From the NCBI GenBank assembly GCA_011365055.1, contig RDOG01000020.1, positions 13,784 through 77,783 of the forward strand: a DNA stretch of 64,000 nucleotides. Direction: 5' to 3'. The notes under the pieces were generated by a model, which saw only the letters and a program-made list of their open reading frames with translations, made no database searches and was not told where the DNA came from. This DNA is from Promethearchaeota archaeon (lineage in GTDB: Archaea > Asgardarchaeota > Lokiarchaeia > Helarchaeales > RDOG01). Positions 56,325 to 64,000 of the stretch are shown here, one piece after another. Every line of letters starts with the position of its first letter. The stretch's first letter is position 1. The position numbers and the translations under genes were made by a program.

Positions 56325-56927
56325 TTATGTCGTCCAAGGTTTTTCATCAGCCATCTTTACATGCTCTTTTCCCTTTAATAGCGGATAAACATGTCCAGGA
56401 GCTATTATATCAACATCCAAATCTAATAATTTCTTGATTGAATATTGAATTTCCTTTGAATTACCCCATCCTATTTCTCCATCAACAAATATCGTATCAC
56501 CAGTAAAAAGTATTTTATTATTTTCCTCATAAATACAAATACTTTCTTTAGTGTGCCCAGGAGTAAAAATTATTTTGAATTTGTAATCACCTAATTGAAT
56601 AAATTGTTGATCGTTTATTTTTTCACACTCTTCATCGTGGAAGGGAGGTTTTTCTGTTTGGTAATAGGCAAAAATTTTTAATCGTTCAGATAATATATTG
56701 AATCCTTGAACGTGGTCACCGTGATAATGAGTAAGAAAAACATATATTTGTTCATTCATGGGATGATTGATTTGGTTTAATCTTTCAATAATTATAATAC
56801 CTATCTTTGGACTGCCACCTGTATCTATTATAACTTTAGGATTCTTTTTTAACAAATATACAATAGAACTTCCTTTTATCTCTGGGATATAGTCCAAAAC
56901 TTCGTTAAATGCTTCCAAATAAATCAT
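56325..56927 (-). CDS. Metallo-beta-lactamase-fold hydrolase, second of a pair
   Basis: The 200-residue protein has the metal motif THYHGDHVQG near residue 66, then FTPGHTKES, FTGDTIF with the bridging Asp, and APGHVYP. This is a complete dinuclear metal site of the glyoxalase II/MBL type. It follows a similar gene by 7 bases. The family includes hydroxyacylglutathione hydrolases, thioesterases and many unknown enzymes. Being downstream of the dehydratase cluster on the same strand, it could be a thioesterase, but that is inferred. Confidence 0.85.
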   Translation of the reverse strand: MIYLEAFNEVLDYIPEIKGSSIVYLLKKNPKVIIDTGGSPKIGIIIIERLNQINHPMNEQIYVFLTHYHGDHVQGFNILSERLKIFAYYQTEKPPFHDEECEKINDQQFIQLGDYKFKIIFTPGHTKESICIYEENNKILFTGDTIFVDGEIGWGNSKEIQYSIKKLLDLDVDIIAPGHVYPLLKGKEHVKMADEKPWTT

Positions 56928-56934
56928 ACTCTAG

Positions 56935-57549
56935 CTAATAAAATACTCGCTTAGCGAAATTTAATGATTGATTAATATGAGCCTTCGCATTTGTAACCGC
57001 TGCCATGTGTCCAGGACAAAGATATTCAACATCTAATTTTATGAGTTTTTCGATGCTTTCAATCAATTTTTGATGAGATGAACCAGGGAGATCTGTACGT
57101 CCAATGCTACCTTGAGCAAAAACACAATCCCCAGAAAAAAGAATTTTATATTTCTCATTATAAATGCTAATATCACTTGGAGTATGTCCAGGAGTATATA
57201 TTACTTGCAATTCATTTTTATCATCCACTTCAATAATAGTTCCATCCTTTAATGAATGAATTTTATCACCAAGTTTTTGAAATTTTTTTGCAATACTTTC
57301 ATGTACATAGAGATCTGCATTGAAAGCTTCTTGGAATATATATGCATTTCCTGAATGATCTGGGTGAATATGAGTAATTATGATTTTTTCTAAGTTAATA
57401 TTATAAGATTTTAGGTGATCTATGACCTTTTGAGCAAAGGAATTATCGTGACCTGTATCAATTAAAACTTTTTTCAAAAAAATATATATATTAGAATTAA
57501 ATCCATAACTAGGTATGGAATACAGAACTTGATCTATAATATACGACAT
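56935..57549 (-). CDS. Metallo-beta-lactamase-fold hydrolase, first of a pair
   Basis: I start at the ATG at 57549, 5 bases after GAGGT; a GTG at 57561 would lie across the stop of the preceding gene. The 204-residue protein carries THIHPDHSGN, YTPGHTPSD, FSGDCVFAQG and CPGHMAA, the full MBL metal set. FSGDCVF with GSIGRTDLPGS resembles glyoxalase II-like proteins. It has the same layout as its downstream neighbour, so the pair probably arose by duplication. Both are soluble. Confidence 0.87.
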   Translation of the reverse strand: MSYIIDQVLYSIPSYGFNSNIYIFLKKVLIDTGHDNSFAQKVIDHLKSYNINLEKIIITHIHPDHSGNAYIFQEAFNADLYVHESIAKKFQKLGDKIHSLKDGTIIEVDDKNELQVIYTPGHTPSDISIYNEKYKILFSGDCVFAQGSIGRTDLPGSSHQKLIESIEKLIKLDVEYLCPGHMAAVTNAKAHINQSLNFAKRVFY

Positions 57550-57557
57550 GTTATACC

Positions 57558-57839
57558 TCACTTAAGTAATTCTACACGAGCTGTAATGATAGATAAATAA
57601 TCCATCTGTTCATAAAAAGAAATAAGATAAGGAAGTCCATCACTTGCTTTCCTGATGATCCATCCCAATCTAAAATTTTCATCAGCAGCGGGGGTTAATT
57701 CTGCTATAATTTCTCCTTCTAAAAAATCCCCAAATTTTTCACTAGCATCAGTTTTCATATCAATAGCAAAGAAATCCCCTGTAAATCTATATAAATCCCA
57801 AAATTTTTTATTATCCCTTAATTTCACGTGCTCGAACAC
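57558..57839 (-). CDS. Small protein of unknown function upstream of the MBL pair
   Basis: This 93-residue protein has alternating strand and helix patterns (FTGDFFAIDMKTD, LEGEIIAELTPAADEN, RLGWIIRKASDGLP), no cysteine and no membrane span. The family is not recognised. Its stop is 8 bases before the first metallo-beta-lactamase gene, so it is in the same operon, and it lies 18 bases after the GNAT gene. Confidence 0.6.
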   Translation of the reverse strand: MFEHVKLRDNKKFWDLYRFTGDFFAIDMKTDASEKFGDFLEGEIIAELTPAADENFRLGWIIRKASDGLPYLISFYEQMDYLSIITARVELLK

Positions 57840-57857
57840 CTAATTATAATAATTATA

Positions 57858-58328
57858 TTAATAGGTCTCTTCAAAATAATCCATAGAAAGCTTTCTTTCC
57901 ATTACAACATACTGTTTTTTAAACCCATATTTTTCGTATAATTTACCTTCTTTCTCCATGTTTCGAGCATTAATCTGCACATGACTTGCATTATTTTTCA
58001 CAAAAAATTTTATGACGCTTCGAATTAAGTCTCTTCCTATTCCTTTTCCTCTATAATTTTTAGTAATTACGAAATTAGCTATTTGTCCATGTTTTGTTGG
58101 TGTTGACATGACTTCACCCCAAATCATACCTACTGCCTTATCACCATCTTTAGCTAGAATAATTCCTTCATTGTTTATCGGATCACTCATTCTTCGAGAC
58201 AAGGTCAATGTAAACCTTCTTTCATCAAATCTTTGATTTAAAAAGTTGGTTAATTCCATCATTAATTCCTTAACGGCATCATAATCCTTCGTTAAATCGT
58301 AATTTATTATTTCTATGGGCATTTTCAT
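57858..58328 (-). CDS. GNAT-family acetyltransferase
   Basis: I use the ATG at 58328; another ATG at 58322 is equally good. The 156-residue protein shows the acetyl-CoA loop NYRGKGIGRDLIRSVIKFF near residues 92-110, VQINARNMEKEGKLYEKYGF, and a short C-terminus. This is a complete single GNAT domain with an unknown substrate. It follows the CooC-like gene by 37 bases on the same strand, so it is probably co-transcribed with the dehydratase-activation cluster. Confidence 0.87.
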   Translation of the reverse strand: MKMPIEIINYDLTKDYDAVKELMMELTNFLNQRFDERRFTLTLSRRMSDPINNEGIILAKDGDKAVGMIWGEVMSTPTKHGQIANFVITKNYRGKGIGRDLIRSVIKFFVKNNASHVQINARNMEKEGKLYEKYGFKKQYVVMERKLSMDYFEETY

Positions 58329-58365
58329 CAATTTTTTTTTTTCTTAATCTACATAATTAAATGAA

Positions 58366-59118
58366 TTATATTTTTAAATTTTCCAATATTTTTAGAGTAG
58401 CAATGAAGCTTATTGAATTTTCATCGAGATCAAATATTGTTTTACCAGATAAATCAATCTCTTGAATGTTTTCATCAAAAGGAATTGATCCTAATATCGA
58501 TAATTGATAATCTCTTGCCACTTTTTCTAGCTTATCAAGATTCATTGATACTTTATTAAATATAAGAAACATGTTTTCATATTTAGTAAATAATTTAGCG
58601 GTTTTTTTTATTGAAATAGCAGTCTCCAAAGATCTCATGGCTGCATCAGAAACGACAATTATCGTATTAACTTTTTGTATTACCTTTCTATTAATTTGTT
58701 CGAGCCCTGCTTCACAATCAATTATAACATTATCATAGTTCTTAGCAAGTATCTCTATGGATTCTCTTAATAACGAATTGGATGGACAGAAACAACCTGA
58801 TAATTCAGGTTGTCCCATTACTAACATACTAAAGTTATTATTTTCGTATAAAGATTCAAAAAGCATGTAATCTAGAGACCCAACCAAGTCATGTTTTGCT
58901 TCTTCATCTTTTTTACTTGCTTGTTTTACTATTTCTTTACGAATATGTTCTAAATCTTTTTGAACTTTAACACCTAATAATTTTGCTAAATGTGGATAAG
59001 CAGGATCTGCATCTATTACAAGAATTTTCTTTTTTTTCGCTTTTATCATGGCTCTTGTAAATAATGCGGTAAACATGGACTTTCCAGTTCCACCCTTTCC
59101 AACAATAGCAATGATCAT
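58366..59118 (-). CDS. cooC: CooC-type nickel-insertion ATPase
   Basis: The 250-residue protein is a MinD/ParA-type P-loop ATPase with the deviant Walker A VGKGGTGKS (6-14), IDADP near residue 35 and the CooC hallmark GCFCPSNSLLR with C109 and C111. That CxC pair binds nickel or zinc between subunits in CO dehydrogenase maturation factors. DCEAGLEQI near residue 146 also fits CooC. Family members load nickel into CO dehydrogenase or acetyl-CoA synthase. No such enzyme is in the window; instead the gene follows, by 22 bases, one for an acetyl-CoA-synthase-like domain protein, suggesting a joint metal-related task. Confidence 0.88.
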   Translation of the reverse strand: MIIAIVGKGGTGKSMFTALFTRAMIKAKKKKILVIDADPAYPHLAKLLGVKVQKDLEHIRKEIVKQASKKDEEAKHDLVGSLDYMLFESLYENNNFSMLVMGQPELSGCFCPSNSLLRESIEILAKNYDNVIIDCEAGLEQINRKVIQKVNTIIVVSDAAMRSLETAISIKKTAKLFTKYENMFLIFNKVSMNLDKLEKVARDYQLSILGSIPFDENIQEIDLSGKTIFDLDENSISFIATLKILENLKI

Positions 59119-59140
59119 TTAAAACCCATTATTTTGTTTC

Positions 59141-59917
59141 TTAATTATTTTTACGGAATTTTTTCATTCGAGCAATTAAATCATCTATTTCATCACATAT
59201 AGAAGTGTAATCACAAGTATTACAATCCCACTCAAATCCGCAATCTTCTCGCTTTTTAACCAATTCTTGATATTTTTCCAAGTATTGTATTGTTTTAGAT
59301 ACTCCATATTTTTTATAAATTAATGAATTAAAATTATCAAATTTTTTAATATCATCTTTATTTGATGTTATGAAAATTATTTCCATTACCTCAATTTCTG
59401 GAATAGATTCTTTTAATAAAATAAAAAATGCTTTTCCTAAAGCCTCAAAATCAAATCCTTTTTCCACGATAGATTTACTGACCCTAGTCCATAATTTACG
59501 TGGAGTAGCTTTTATCATATAACCTTCTAAATAGTTAATTAAACGTGTTTTCCTGTCCAAATCCTTCAAAGATATCTCCAAAATATTTTTTCCACCCATA
59601 ATAAAAATTTGACCGAAATCTAAATTATTTTCTTTGGATTCTCTAATATTTGGTCCGATCAAGGTGATTTTGTTGTTTATAATATTTTTAAGATCAGCCT
59701 CGTCATTTGTAGGAAGTATTATGGAAGTGGATGCATTATTAGGACCTCCAAGCTCAAGATAGGTATCTTCCTTGAAGATTATGTCATTAGAAAAGTTTGG
59801 ATTTATTTCGAATTTAAAATTTTCTTTGATTTTAATTGAATCATCGATAAAGAATTCTTTTAATGACGTATTTTTTTTTATTTCTTCAAGTATTATTCTT
59901 AATTCTTTTAAAAACAA
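59141..59917 (-). CDS. Free-standing acetyl-CoA synthase (CdhC/AcsB)-like domain with four-cysteine tail
   Basis: The 258-residue protein, with a TTG start, matches the region of acetyl-CoA synthase beta subunits that precedes the A-cluster domain: EINPNFSNDIIF, YLELGGP near residue 53, KITLIGPNIRE, a short GGKNILE, RLINYLEGYM, and LWTRVSKSIVEKGFDFEALGKAF. The A-cluster domain itself is absent. Instead it ends with CGFEWDCNTCDYTSIC (C226, C232, C235, C241), a likely 4Fe-4S or other metal site. It lies between the dehydratase activator and CooC genes, each within 25 bases. The match is from memory of the family, not from a search. An electron-transfer or cluster-delivery role is inferred. Confidence 0.7.
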   Translation of the reverse strand: MFLKELRIILEEIKKNTSLKEFFIDDSIKIKENFKFEINPNFSNDIIFKEDTYLELGGPNNASTSIILPTNDEADLKNIINNKITLIGPNIRESKENNLDFGQIFIMGGKNILEISLKDLDRKTRLINYLEGYMIKATPRKLWTRVSKSIVEKGFDFEALGKAFFILLKESIPEIEVMEIIFITSNKDDIKKFDNFNSLIYKKYGVSKTIQYLEKYQELVKKREDCGFEWDCNTCDYTSICDEIDDLIARMKKFRKNN

Positions 59918-59938
59918 TCGTTATACGTCCGAAACTTT

Positions 59939-60775
59939 TTAAAAATCCCATTTCTTTAATTTATGTGAAGATTGCTTTATTGATTTTTTATATTCTTCTT
60001 TAGCAAAAAGAGCTGCACCAAGAGCGCCTATTATCTGTGGATCAATAGGAATTTTTTTAAGCTTTACGTTAAGTTTCTTTTCTAACGAATCGACAACACC
60101 AATGTTTTTTGCAACCCCACCAGTCATTGTTATATCAAGTTCCAATCCAACCCGGTTTATTAGTGAGAGTGTTCTTGAAGCAATCGAATCATGAAGACCT
60201 GCAATTATATCAACAACTTTTTTACCCTCTGCGATTAGTGAAATTACTTCTGTTTCAGCAAATATGCCACATTGTGCAGTTATTAAAGCAGGGTTTGAGG
60301 ATTGTAATGATATTTTACCCATATCTTCCAACTTAGTTTCAAGAACTTTAGCCATAACTTCTAGAAACCTTCCAGTTCCTGCAGCACACTTATCATTCAT
60401 TCCAAAATCTAATAACTTACCATTTTCATCAACGCGAATTACCTTAGAGTCTTGACCTCCAATATCAACAATAGTTCGGATTGAAGGAATACACCAATGG
60501 GCACCTTTGCCATGACAAGCTATTTCAGATAAATTAATATTTGCAAAGGGAATTTTAACTCGCCCATATCCAGTACCAACAATGAATTTAATGTCTTCTT
60601 TTGTGACTTTTGCATCATTTAAAGCTAAATCAAATGCCTCTCTTGCCGTTTTTTGGGGAATAACACGGCTTAATACAGTAGATTTACCTAATATTTTAGG
60701 TTCCGAATTATCTTCCCACTTTATAATAACAGCCTTCCCTGCAAGGCTACCCACATCACATCCAGCAAAGAAAAT
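59939..60775 (-). CDS. 2-hydroxyacyl-CoA dehydratase / benzoyl-CoA reductase activator ATPase (HgdC/BcrD family)
   Basis: This ASKHA-fold iron-sulfur ATPase drives single electrons at very low potential into the dehydratase or reductase. I place the start at an ATT at 60775, 6 bases after AGGTGA. Only then does the protein have the complete phosphate loop FFAGCDVGSLAGKAV; the first usual start codon (GTG, 60754) would cut into it, and a stop codon lies two codons above ATT. In 278 residues I see IVDIGGQDSK, the cluster cysteines C130 (NDKCAAGTGRF) and C169 (QCGIFAETE), and TGGVAKNIG. Two equal subunits would share one 4Fe-4S cluster. Confidence 0.88.
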   Translation of the reverse strand: MFFAGCDVGSLAGKAVIIKWEDNSEPKILGKSTVLSRVIPQKTAREAFDLALNDAKVTKEDIKFIVGTGYGRVKIPFANINLSEIACHGKGAHWCIPSIRTIVDIGGQDSKVIRVDENGKLLDFGMNDKCAAGTGRFLEVMAKVLETKLEDMGKISLQSSNPALITAQCGIFAETEVISLIAEGKKVVDIIAGLHDSIASRTLSLINRVGLELDITMTGGVAKNIGVVDSLEKKLNVKLKKIPIDPQIIGALGAALFAKEEYKKSIKQSSHKLKKWDF

Positions 60776-60781
60776 TGTTAT

Positions 60782-60787
60782 TCACCT
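60782..60787 (-). promoter_or_regulatory. Ribosome site that decides the activator start
   Basis: AGGTGA on the minus strand lies 6 bases before ATT at 60775. The spacing matches that seen at well-supported starts nearby, and no ATG, GTG or TTG in frame fits it. Confidence 0.5.
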
Positions 60788-60795
60788 AATTGATT

Positions 60796-60960
60796 GATCT
60801 CTCTACCCAATTTATCAGTTATAAGAATTATCAGATTTAATATCGTTTAATATGATCTTTTTGTTACGAACTAACTAAATGAATTCTCTATACAATTTAT
60901 CTGTTTCCAAAATTATCAGATTTTATACAATTTAACACTATTTTTCCTAACTTATTAAAT
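60796..60960. repeat. Imperfect tandem repeat, period 85 bp, upstream of the activator gene
   Basis: Two units, 60796-60880 and 60881-60960, share blocks spaced exactly 85 bases apart: TCTCTA (60800 and 60885), CAATTTATC (60808 and 60893), AATTATCAGATTT (60826 and 60911) and TTTAA (60846 and 60931). The second unit has lost about 5 bases near its end. The array fills most of the 240-base gap between the dehydratase and activator genes, so it is probably a duplicated promoter or regulatory element. Confidence 0.65.
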
Positions 60961-61014
60961 TATTGAAGAATTTACTTTATAAGAACTTTTTTCAAAATAA
61001 AAAAAAAAAAGGAA

Positions 61015-62355
61015 TCATTCCACAACGTCTGTTATAAATTCTTTTATCTTTTTCTTGATTTCTTTTGACTTAATTATCCTGCTATCCATCGTGTCGACTT
61101 CAAAAACTAACATCGGAACGCCCGTTTCTTCTTGTACGATTTTTTTCATTAGGCTTGCTATAGCCCAACTGTGCTTGCACCCTAGATGACCTCCCCAAAT
61201 GCAGAAATCTACTTGATATTCTTTAACAATTCTGACAACATCGTCTAAATAATATTCCATTGGACCTCTCGACTGTCTTGCCATTGGCATTTCGAGTATT
61301 GTTTTAGACATATCAGTCAACATGCTTTCTTCTGAACTTGTATCAATTGGTTGTGCCATCTGATATCCCATCATATCCATGACAGTGCTTACTTGGAATT
61401 TTGTTTCCATCCAAGAGAACAACATCGGATCAAAAAATATTGGTATATACACCCAGAAGCATCTATATTTTTCTTCTTTTTTACCTCTTGACATTTCATG
61501 GATTGCACCAGTTCCATTCTTAATTTTCTCCTTTGCATCATCTCTACACCATTTAGCATATTCTATAGTATTCCCAGACAGTCCAGCTGAAGTCATCAAC
61601 GTCATATAAAGTGTGAATGGTATCATCGAAGGAGCAGGATTTGGTTTATGTTTTAAAAGCTCTAAAAATTCGAGGGTATATTCTCTAGCTTTATTTGAAT
61701 TCTCAACTGTTTTTTTTAGGTTTTCAAAGGTTATTTCCGTATTACCATTTTTTTCGATGAATTTAATCATTTTTTTGAGCTGATTAGCACAGTACGGCAA
61801 TGTTCGTTCATCATAATATTCATTTTTTTCATCATAATGCCAGTAAGGAATGTCAAACGTGAACGTTGGAACCTTATAATAGTTCTTCATGACTTGATAT
61901 AAAATATTGGTGCTATCGCAAGGTTGGCTAGCATAAACGATCATGTTAGGTTTTGGAGTTGCCTCTTGTAAAGTGGCTCCAATCCATATCTTTTGAGCAT
62001 TACATTGCTCCCTCGCAAGACCACTTTCTTCCGCTTTATCAATATATTTCATGTGGAGAGGAGTATTGGCAATTGCTAAAGCAACTGATCCAACTTCTTG
62101 ACATAATGGATACAAATTACCAGCATAAAATAATTCAGGAGGCACACAAAAATTATACATTGCAATTGGCGTACCATTCTTCTCAGCATTGTATAAATTG
62201 TTCATATAATCAACCATGACATCCAGAAAGCCGATATTAAACGCGGGTAAATTAGGAGCATCTACAAAATTTGCTGCCATATCCCTTCCTAATGTAAAGA
62301 ATTGTCTTAAATTATCCCATAATTCATACTTTTGTTTAAATTCATCAACACTCAT
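61015..62355 (-). CDS. 2-hydroxyacyl-CoA dehydratase / benzoyl-CoA reductase-type subunit, larger (BcrB/HgdA-like)
   Basis: The 446-residue protein belongs to the HGD-D family. Segments with the cluster cysteines are YNFCVPPELFYAGNLYPLC near residue 90, YASQPCDSTN near 162 and WGGHLGCKHSWA near 395. Its length fits the larger subunit of two-subunit dehydratases or benzoyl-CoA reductases. Together with the next subunit it would bind CoA thioesters and use ATP-activated electrons to dehydrate or reduce them. GGAGGT precedes the ATG, which overlaps the stop of the upstream subunit gene by 4 bases, so the two are translationally coupled. The actual substrate is open. Confidence 0.87.
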   Translation of the reverse strand: MSVDEFKQKYELWDNLRQFFTLGRDMAANFVDAPNLPAFNIGFLDVMVDYMNNLYNAEKNGTPIAMYNFCVPPELFYAGNLYPLCQEVGSVALAIANTPLHMKYIDKAEESGLAREQCNAQKIWIGATLQEATPKPNMIVYASQPCDSTNILYQVMKNYYKVPTFTFDIPYWHYDEKNEYYDERTLPYCANQLKKMIKFIEKNGNTEITFENLKKTVENSNKAREYTLEFLELLKHKPNPAPSMIPFTLYMTLMTSAGLSGNTIEYAKWCRDDAKEKIKNGTGAIHEMSRGKKEEKYRCFWVYIPIFFDPMLFSWMETKFQVSTVMDMMGYQMAQPIDTSSEESMLTDMSKTILEMPMARQSRGPMEYYLDDVVRIVKEYQVDFCIWGGHLGCKHSWAIASLMKKIVQEETGVPMLVFEVDTMDSRIIKSKEIKKKIKEFITDVVE

Positions 62356-63470
62356 GCTAAAACCTCCAAAAAAGCTTGGACACGGGTTTTCATTTGTCCA
62401 ACTCCAGATATCGTATATTCCCTATCAAGAACCAAAACAGGAACTCCAAGATCTTTCAATTCCTTGATAAACATATAATTTTCTCCTGAATGTAAATCGC
62501 AGAATTTTAGACTTTCAAACACGACTCCGTCAACATAAAAATCTTTAATCATATTTTTTAAATATGCAAGACGAGTTGAATGATCTACACTATCACCAAT
62601 CATTCTCGGACACGCAGGTTTTGTTAAATACCTTTCAGAAAGTGCCTGGAGAGTTTCTTTATTTTCATCTACCAAATTCCAAAAATATTTTGAACCGAAA
62701 CATTGAGCATCAGTTACAACATAAGCACCCATATCTTCAATCAATTGAATGTATTCGTAATCATCAATCAAGCTTCCAACAACAAGTAAGCGAGATTTAG
62801 ATTCTAAAGAAGGTCGCGAATCGTAATTTTCTAAAAATTTTGATAACATTTGATTAAACGTTTCTCGTGGCAATGCCGTAGAAGAGATTGTTATCGCAAA
62901 TGCTTCTTTTCCCGTTATTTTCAATTCTGCTTCTTTCCGTTTTTCATATAAAGCTTTTAATAATTTTCGAGTCTCATTAAAAACTTTAATTGAATTCTTT
63001 ATTTTATTCTCAGGAATTTGAACCTTGAAATGTTCTTGTAGTTTATTTTTAAAGAGAGAAATTTCACCTCTATACCAATCAATAGCTTCCGGTGTTGCGT
63101 GATGAGGGACACTCAAGAAATGAACAAATTGGGGAGACTTTTCGTGCACCCAATTATCATACGTTCTCCGAACATGATCACAAGAATTTAAAGAGACCAA
63201 TCCATCAAGAAAATCATATTCACCTTTTAAAGCTTTATCAAGTGAAGTTCTGCAAAATGTACAATTTAGTCGTGATAGAAATCCATCACCTACATCCGTC
63301 TCATGGTGCCCTCTTGCGTTGATCCTAATTGGTAAAATACCTGCAGCATGAATTATTTCCTCAGGTATGTATGAACAGAAAAAACCGATTGTTTTCTTAT
63401 CTTTTTTCCAATCATTTATCCATTTTGTTGGTACAGGACCAGCAGCTTCAAAAAATTCTTCAATTGACAT
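62352..63470 (-). CDS. 2-hydroxyacyl-CoA dehydratase / benzoyl-CoA reductase-type subunit, smaller (BcrC/HgdB-like)
   Basis: I start at the ATG at 63470, 8 bases after GGGTGA; a GTG at 63482 belongs to that site. The 372-residue protein shows FFCSYIPEEIIHAAGILPIR near residue 35 (in two parts), CTFCRTSLD, LNSCDHVRRTYD and near the end KFCDLHSGENYM and SGVGQMKTRVQAFLE. This is the smaller-subunit pattern of the HGD-D family, with cysteines placed to hold a 4Fe-4S (or double-cubane) cluster. It leads the cluster and is followed at once by the larger subunit. A GATATAAATA promoter-like element lies near 63542-63551 on the minus strand. Confidence 0.88.
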   Translation of the reverse strand: MSIEEFFEAAGPVPTKWINDWKKDKKTIGFFCSYIPEEIIHAAGILPIRINARGHHETDVGDGFLSRLNCTFCRTSLDKALKGEYDFLDGLVSLNSCDHVRRTYDNWVHEKSPQFVHFLSVPHHATPEAIDWYRGEISLFKNKLQEHFKVQIPENKIKNSIKVFNETRKLLKALYEKRKEAELKITGKEAFAITISSTALPRETFNQMLSKFLENYDSRPSLESKSRLLVVGSLIDDYEYIQLIEDMGAYVVTDAQCFGSKYFWNLVDENKETLQALSERYLTKPACPRMIGDSVDHSTRLAYLKNMIKDFYVDGVVFESLKFCDLHSGENYMFIKELKDLGVPVLVLDREYTISGVGQMKTRVQAFLEVLA

Positions 63471-63787
63471 AACATCTGTCACCCATTAAGAAATATAACG
63501 ATGTCATATTATAAGCTTATTTGAATTATCTAAATTATGATATAAATATATCAGTTTCTTTCGAAAGATTCTTGAATTTAAAAAAGAAAGGGTTTTATCA
63601 TTAACAAGATTGAAAACATAGTAGATTCTAACTAAATTAATATTGATGATATTGGCAGAATAATTAGATTATAGTCTATTTTTCTTTAAAAGATAGAAAT
63701 CATGTAGAATTTATCTAAAATAAATTCGTAAAAGTAGTAGAATATATAAAATAAAAAAAATGAAATAAAATAATTTAATTAAAAAAT
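63471..63787. other. Intergenic stretch upstream of the dehydratase operon
   Basis: About 315 AT-rich bases. The near-palindromic GATATAAATATATC (63538-63551) is a TATA-box candidate for the dehydratase subunits. Nothing else is recognised. Confidence 0.4.
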
Positions 63788-64000
63788 TTATGCTTTTTTC
63801 GCTTTTTTTGTCTTTTTCTTTTTAGTTTTTGTGGTCTTTGCTGCGGTTTTAGGTTTTGGTTTCGGTTCTTCTTTCTTAGGTTCAGGTTCGGGTTTTACCT
63901 CTTCTTTCTTGGGCTCGGGTTTTGGTTCGGGTTTTACCTCTTCTTTCTTGGGCTCGGGTTTTGGTTCGGGTTTTACCTCTTCTTTCTTGGGCTCGGGTTT
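63788..64000 (-). CDS. C-terminus of a protein with Lys/Pro/Glu repeat tail, cut by the window edge
   Basis: An open minus-strand frame enters from the right edge and ends at TAA (63788-63790), giving 70 visible residues. They consist of a 13-residue repeat of the type KPEPKKEEVKPEP, present about three times, then EPKKEEPKPKPK and a Lys/Thr/Ala-rich end. It is certainly disordered and highly charged. Such tails are found on DNA-binding, ribosomal or surface-linked proteins. The main domain lies outside the window, so no function can be given. Confidence 0.7.
   Translation of the reverse strand, partial: KPEPKKEEVKPEPKPEPKKEEVKPEPKPEPKKEEVKPEPEPKKEEPKPKPKTAAKTTKTKKKKTKKAKKA
63885..64000. repeat. 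39-bp tandem repeat, three copies, within a coding region
   Basis: Copies begin at 63885, 63924 and 63963 (GGTTCGGGTTTTACC...). The last two are almost identical base for base, and the array may continue past the edge. It encodes the 13-residue Lys/Pro/Glu repeat. Copy number may vary between strains. Confidence 0.85.

Follow-up and report, generated by a model that had tools for sequence, protein, structure and literature searches.

A free-standing acetyl-CoA synthase A2-like protein and a CooC-type ATPase accompany a subfamily of predicted double-cubane reductases in Asgard archaea and bacteria

HgdC-type activases inject electrons into their partner enzymes using ATP, and CooC loads nickel into CO dehydrogenase (CODH) and acetyl-CoA synthase (ACS); a 2016 study by Gregg reportedly has AcsF inserting nickel into ACS with ATP. 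Genes of both kinds stand side by side in a stretch of 64,000 nucleotides (the window) from a Promethearchaeota archaeon of the Helarchaeales (contig RDOG01000020.1, positions 13,784 to 77,783). On its minus strand, five genes spanning 63482 to 58366 follow one another in the order HGDb, HGDa, ACT, ACSL, CooC and encode two HGD-D family subunits, an activase, a short ACS-like protein and a CooC/AcsF-like ATPase. This content and transcription order, proposed in the initial annotation, were confirmed, and Pfam matches together with the nearest solved structures bore out the family labels of all five genes. The window holds an Asgard copy, probably Helarchaeota, of a widespread conserved module. 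Literature searches in an open-licence library turned up no description of the five-gene combination.

The closest described enzymes are the class I benzoyl-CoA reductases BzdNOPQ and MbdONPQ, which like the module comprise two HGD-D subunits, one with a six-Cys double cubane and one with a three-Cys active site, and a BadF-type activase. The module differs from them by its additional ACSL and CooC genes and by an HGDa subunit that lacks a counterpart of the catalytic His131 of BzdO, and the window has one activase gene instead of the P/Q pair. The 2-hydroxyacyl-CoA dehydratases HgdABC and HadBCI share the subunit and activase folds and a single HgdC-type activase; these dehydratases have lost the double cubane (PMC11971306, in part), and in the literature examined no report of ACSL or CooC was found for them. 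The double-cubane cluster protein (DCCP) shows the same six-Cys pattern as the module, in which C-D-G follows the second Cys as in one DCCP sequence; unlike the HGDb/HGDa pair, DCCP is a homodimer (PMC11971306, in part). AcsB/CdhC and AcsF/CooC have the A2 domain and the C-x-C CooC-type ATPase in common with the module, which lacks the A-cluster domain and in most carriers tested comes without CODH. According to excerpts of PMC10134865, the Acetobacterium isoprene reductase operon contains HypA/HypB, that is, nickel chaperones beside a reductase not known to use nickel; there, reductase and chaperones belong to other families than those of the module.

HGDb (62352..63482, 376 aa) matched Pfam HGD-D at 1.5e-91, with BzdN as best solved relative (3.8e-62). 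The first possible start codon of its frame is the GTG at 63482, upstream of the in-frame ATG at 63470 that had been annotated as the start, and either may be used. Cys36, 74, 101, 261, 291 and 328 were all kept in 45/45 module-adjacent copies, and their pattern is that of the six [8Fe-9S] ligands of BzdN, Cys36/73/100/263/293/327 (PMC11971306, in part). From this match, the six Cys are expected to hold an [8Fe-9S] double cubane. The same residues were present in 15/20 HGDb-type proteins from four carriers, the five exceptions being low-scoring pairs of G001 and G111, and in 15/16 of a second set, where the single exception came from G166.

HGDa (61015..62355, 446 aa), which overlaps HGDb, matched Pfam HGD-D at 1.9e-56 and the BzdO profile at 1.2e-37. 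Profile alignment paired its Cys118, Cys146 and Cys393 with Cys95, Cys128 and Cys380 of BzdO, so that HGDa is predicted to carry a substrate-facing cluster through these three residues. Cys118 and Cys146 were kept in 48/48 copies. Position 393 was Cys in 35/48, including the window copy and 28 copies from loci L020-L080, and His in 13/48; the His copies made up 13 of the 19 from loci L003-L019 and lay mostly within the motif GHMGHK. His as third cluster ligand hints at an unusual site. The catalytic His131 of BzdO, three residues past the second cluster Cys, had a counterpart in 0/48 HGDa.

The activase gene ACT (59939..60772) matched Pfam BcrAD_BadFG (1.1e-59) and TIGR00241 (240.5 bits, cut-off 125.4), with MbdQ (4.3e-73) and also HgdC/HadI as profile relatives. 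The HgdC-type activator of the initial annotation was thus verified as to family; its listed open reading frame (ORF), 59939-60754, lacks the N-terminal residues, since it begins at an internal GTG (60754), 260 bases from HGDa. By eye, the frame upstream of this GTG reads IFFAGCDVGS without ATG, GTG or TTG and reaches an ATT near 60772, which makes an ATT start codon or a sequence error possible. With its BcrAD_BadFG activase and its two HGD-D subunits, both carrying Cys residues for cluster binding, the system falls into the superfamily of class I benzoyl-CoA reductases, 2-hydroxyacyl-CoA dehydratases and DCCP, and HGDb/HGDa would operate like other members. They should not, however, be classed as a benzoyl-CoA reductase: they missed the NCBIfam equivalog cut-offs for BzdN (213.8 of 453.8 bits) and BzdO (60.6 of 448.6 bits), likewise those for BcrB/BcrC and 2-hydroxyisocaproyl-CoA dehydratase, and the double_cubane (DCCP) cut-off (215.8 of 350 bits).

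ACSL (59141..59917, 258 aa) matched Pfam CdhC at 1.2e-18. The CdhC/AcsB-like domain noted earlier is therefore real, and covers the first part of CdhC only: ACSL aligned with profile positions 3-172 of 464, which we take to be the A2 domain in the A1/A2/A3 naming of ACS, the A-cluster part being absent. In the predicted structure ACSL was shown to adopt the A2 fold, residues 28-207 (59297..59836) aligning to ACS residues 315-495. None of the A-cluster ligands of A3 (C-x2-C-x8-C-x9-C and CGC) was found in the 258 residues, and 19/19 full-length ACS frames had them. Behind the A2-like domain, the C-x5-C-x2-C-x5-C tail was present as claimed (C226, C232, C235, C241; 59195..59242) and may form a metal or cluster site. 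The last three Cys (C-x2-C-x5-C) occurred in 81/81 ACSL ORFs of the first set, and position 226 was Cys in 19% of these; model confidence was low at residues 220-230. The tail might be a remnant of the A-cluster loop; local HH alignment to ACS ended before the tail, and a forced global alignment placed it loosely. The nearest relatives of ACSL had 73% and 68% identity, the latter from a Candidatus Helarchaeota. Separately, three Chloroflexi ACS paralogues (L084, L086 and L087, in G009 and G010) of 455-491 aa have A-cluster motifs and short N-termini and are located away from the module.

The ATPase gene (58366..59118, 250 aa) lies close behind ACSL, and its product matched a CbiA/ParA-type Pfam family at 8.3e-16. 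Among solved structures, CooC1 (3kje, 1.4e-13) came closest, its C-x-C motif aligning with that of the ATPase, which substantiated the reading as a CooC ATPase. This metal motif (Cys109 and Cys111; 58786..58794) and the deviant Walker A motif (GKGGxGK) were invariant in the 22 rows of alignment A6. A FastTree phylogeny of 55 ATPase sequences, in which one G166 sequence appears twice and the root was set on CODH-side ATPases, united the window ATPase and the other module ATPases in one clade with support 0.885, or 0.953 without G166. Profile scores across 150 genomes from one Clostridia family, that of G030 (labelled uncultured Oscillospiraceae), agreed with this grouping: among the 13 genomes with ACSL, 12 scored 318-371 bits, and all others reached at most 296, with G166 at 296 bits followed by classes at 204-234 and 92-124 bits. 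Sampled stretches placed the 92-124 class next to CODH in 7/7 cases, and the 204-234 class next to ACS or CODH in 5/14. By sequence, the module ATPase forms a class of its own.

To what extent do these genes travel together? A scan of species genomes yielded 215 ACSL relatives. The best 80 loci, which were analysed, came from one Helarchaeota metagenome-assembled genome (MAG), Chloroflexi, some 60 Clostridia and a few Desulfobacterota-, Myxococcota-, Acidobacteria- and Spirochaete-type MAGs. Among the 39 loci that reached 5 kb upstream of ACSL, 34 carried the complete set on a single strand inside 7 kb; the five-gene set proposed for search in other genomes thus recurs, its order varying by group. 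Clostridia showed CooC-HGDb-HGDa-ACT-ACSL, and many other groups HGDb-HGDa-ACT-ACSL-CooC or ACT-HGDb-HGDa-ACSL-CooC. The exceptions were L001 (no HGD), L011 (no ACT or CooC), L023 (no CooC), L045 (none of the partner genes) and L052 (CooC only). No HGD gene was thus within reach at L001, L045 and L052, and the genomes of L001 and L052 carry HGD-D elsewhere. Several HGD pairs had no activase within the sampled stretch. A search of viral contigs gave 54 pattern matches, none related to ACSL.

Co-occurrence was then counted in whole genomes, the HGDb subfamily being defined by profile A5 at E<=1e-90; alignments A3, A5 and A6 include rows from some of the genomes subsequently searched. Of the 195 Asgard genomes examined, 50 matched the ACSL profile; five of these had 466-484 aa frames taken as full CdhC, which leaves 45. 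The HGDb subfamily occurred in 47, and 43 had both. In the 150 family genomes, 16 matched ACSL, and 13 of these remain once three with 712-721 aa ACS frames are set aside; the HGDb subfamily was present in 14, namely these 13 and G166. Since any HGD-D was found in 70/150, the tie of ACSL is to this HGDb subfamily. Frequent occurrence of ACSL and CooC without HGD-D or activator genes, which had been named as evidence against a link, was not found: the HGDb subfamily was present in 13/13 family and 43/45 Asgard genomes with ACSL. In the order of G030 (117 genomes), the ACSL profile had eight matches; only G030 and G111 had short ACSL frames, the other six being ACS frames of at least 669 aa.

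Many carriers of the module appear to lack CODH. Searches for CODH and CdhC covered the carriers of 47 of the 80 loci, and 33/47 had no CODH above cut-off with TIGR01702, one CODH model, the archaeal-type CdhA model not being searched. These 33 gave weak CdhC matches only, none at E<=1e-60 and no full-length-type CdhC. The CODH catalytic subunit was above cut-off in the other 14/47, and a CdhC match at E<=1e-60 was found in 12 carriers with CODH. In the family set, 11/13 carriers had no CODH match above the limits used; in the remaining two, G189 and G236, CODH adjoins a different CooC, not of the module type.

On balance we lean, by a modest margin of confidence, towards ACSL and the ATPase acting together in the maturation of double-cubane reductases and being dedicated to that task, with no part in CO chemistry. 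HGDb and HGDa would be the two subunits of an ATP-dependent member of the superfamily, HGDb storing electrons on the double cubane, HGDa presenting the substrate-facing cluster, and the activase driving electrons into the pair with ATP. A scaffold derived from ACS would have stayed together with an AcsF-like ATPase, and both would have been re-used for metal loading of these reductases: the ATPase would place a metal, probably nickel, on the ACSL tail or pass it via the tail into the HGDa cluster. The 13 family carriers hold 43 HGDb-subfamily copies and 13 ACSL; with these numbers a shared maturase, one ACSL/ATPase pair serving several HGDb/HGDa enzymes per cell, fits better than a fixed subunit, without being proven. 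BzdNO was produced in E. coli from bzdNO alone, as stated in the available part of PMC11971306. A plain double cubane is therefore independent of an ACSL/CooC pair, and the helpers more likely act on a feature specific to the subfamily, possibly the HGDa cluster.

Several observations weigh against this reading. Position 393 was Cys in the window and in 17/17 Asgard HGDa sampled later, so the hint from His fails there. A Helarchaeota MAG other than ours (G001) has its ACT-ACSL-CooC trio away from the HGD pairs. Among Asgard genomes, G422 and G446 have ACSL without the HGDb subfamily, and G350, G367, G404 and G468 the reverse; G166 likewise has the subfamily without ACSL, its five HGDb being diverged (4/5 with six Cys) and a CooC-type ATPase standing behind one pair. 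One of the 13 family genomes with ACSL, G258, gave no CooC at E<=1e-20. The co-occurrence figures are raw counts over genomes of unstated completeness, uncorrected for kinship. Finally, bearing on the second condition named against a link, a CODH/ACS operon without its own CooC, a CooC was seen in 1/20 CODH stretches from the 14 other carriers, on short and often cut contigs, and in these carriers CODH might be a further client of the CooC from the module. The earlier proposal is partly supported: ACSL and CooC accompany this class of reductase rather than CO chemistry, while the specific roles suggested for them, delivery or assembly of a metal cluster or supply of electrons, stay putative.

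The 19/20 CODH stretches without a CooC of their own, the 14 carriers with CODH and the family membership of CooC and ACSL would fit the two genes belonging to CODH/ACS and lying here by chance. We regard this as highly improbable, given the missing A-cluster domain of ACSL, the distinct CooC beside CODH in G189 and G236, and the many carriers, 33/47 and 11/13, without CODH above the limits. A more credible alternative, if still a doubtful one, makes ACSL a working subunit whose Cys tail would hold an ATPase-loaded cluster or metal that passes electrons between activase and HGDb or helps to bind the CoA substrate. The tail is kept in every ACSL ORF, ACSL shares an operon with activase and HGD genes at most loci, and ACSL and HGDb distances agree best among the helper pairs (Spearman 0.919); the excess of HGDb copies over ACSL argues against it, as do some Asgard operons in which ACSL and CooC adjoin an HGD pair with no activase in the stretch.

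That the module encodes a conventional benzoyl-CoA reductase or 2-hydroxyacyl-CoA dehydratase, the two helper genes being hitch-hikers, is quite unlikely. In favour of that view are the superfamily membership and the cluster ligands, and published work took Asgard HGD-D pairs for benzoyl-CoA reductases and deduced aromatic degradation from them (PMC8163825, in the part available); it is opposed by the absence of a His131 counterpart in all HGDa copies, by the missed cut-offs of the named enzymes, and by retention of both helper genes in groups as different as Asgard archaea, Chloroflexi and Clostridia, among others. Very unlikely, too, is some other role of the ACSL/ATPase pair, such as metal or redox sensing or cluster protection or repair: a CsoR/RcnR-type metal-sensing repressor with a His-rich N-terminus lies directly behind the CooC-type ATPase of G166 (L130:12478-13615), and it was seen only in this genome, which has no ACSL.

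If the maturation reading holds, the helper genes hint at a metal-loading step not known for ATP-driven iron-sulfur reductases, and loading by the helpers would imply a new metallocofactor and a nickel need for anaerobes without CODH. A bolder extension, which we hold only tentatively and think probably wrong, is that these double-cubane reductases have nickel or another metal in the active-site cluster, installed without CO by the ACS-descended scaffold and the AcsF-like insertase, in gut bacteria as well as in Asgard archaea; on that view, the change from Cys to His in 13/48 HGDa would signal that some members of the class have a non-standard active-site cluster. The module also marks a separate HGD-D subfamily that is linked to a helper of ACS ancestry and to a nickel-type ATPase and is often present as several enzyme pairs per genome, and ACSL offers a case of an A2 domain working without the rest of ACS, making the role of A2 testable.

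No neighbours beyond the five genes were found to be common to the main groups. Scattered neighbours included an acyl-CoA dehydrogenase or CoA-ligase-type gene in some Chloroflexi, a thiolase at one Clostridia locus, and an FAD oxidase and CCG protein at one Asgard locus. The Asgard stretch L179:5708-12589 (G496) carries HGDb, HGDa, an FAD-linked oxidase, a CCG iron-sulfur protein, ACSL and CooC on one strand, with no activase between. In 28/61 Clostridia loci (L020-L080) the ACSL match begins at most 1.2 kb from a contig end. In G167 (L135, L136 and L138), two HGD contigs begin with an identical 99-base sequence, which lies in the activase, and each overlaps the ACSL contig by 70, a pattern that would fit a repeated activase. 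In the window, the module is followed on the same strand (56325-58331) by genes for a GNAT acetyltransferase, a 93-aa protein without Pfam match and two metallo-beta-lactamase-fold proteins. Upstream, 63788-64000 on the minus strand encodes the end of a protein with Lys/Glu/Pro repeats, KPEPKPEPKKEEV, as judged by eye.

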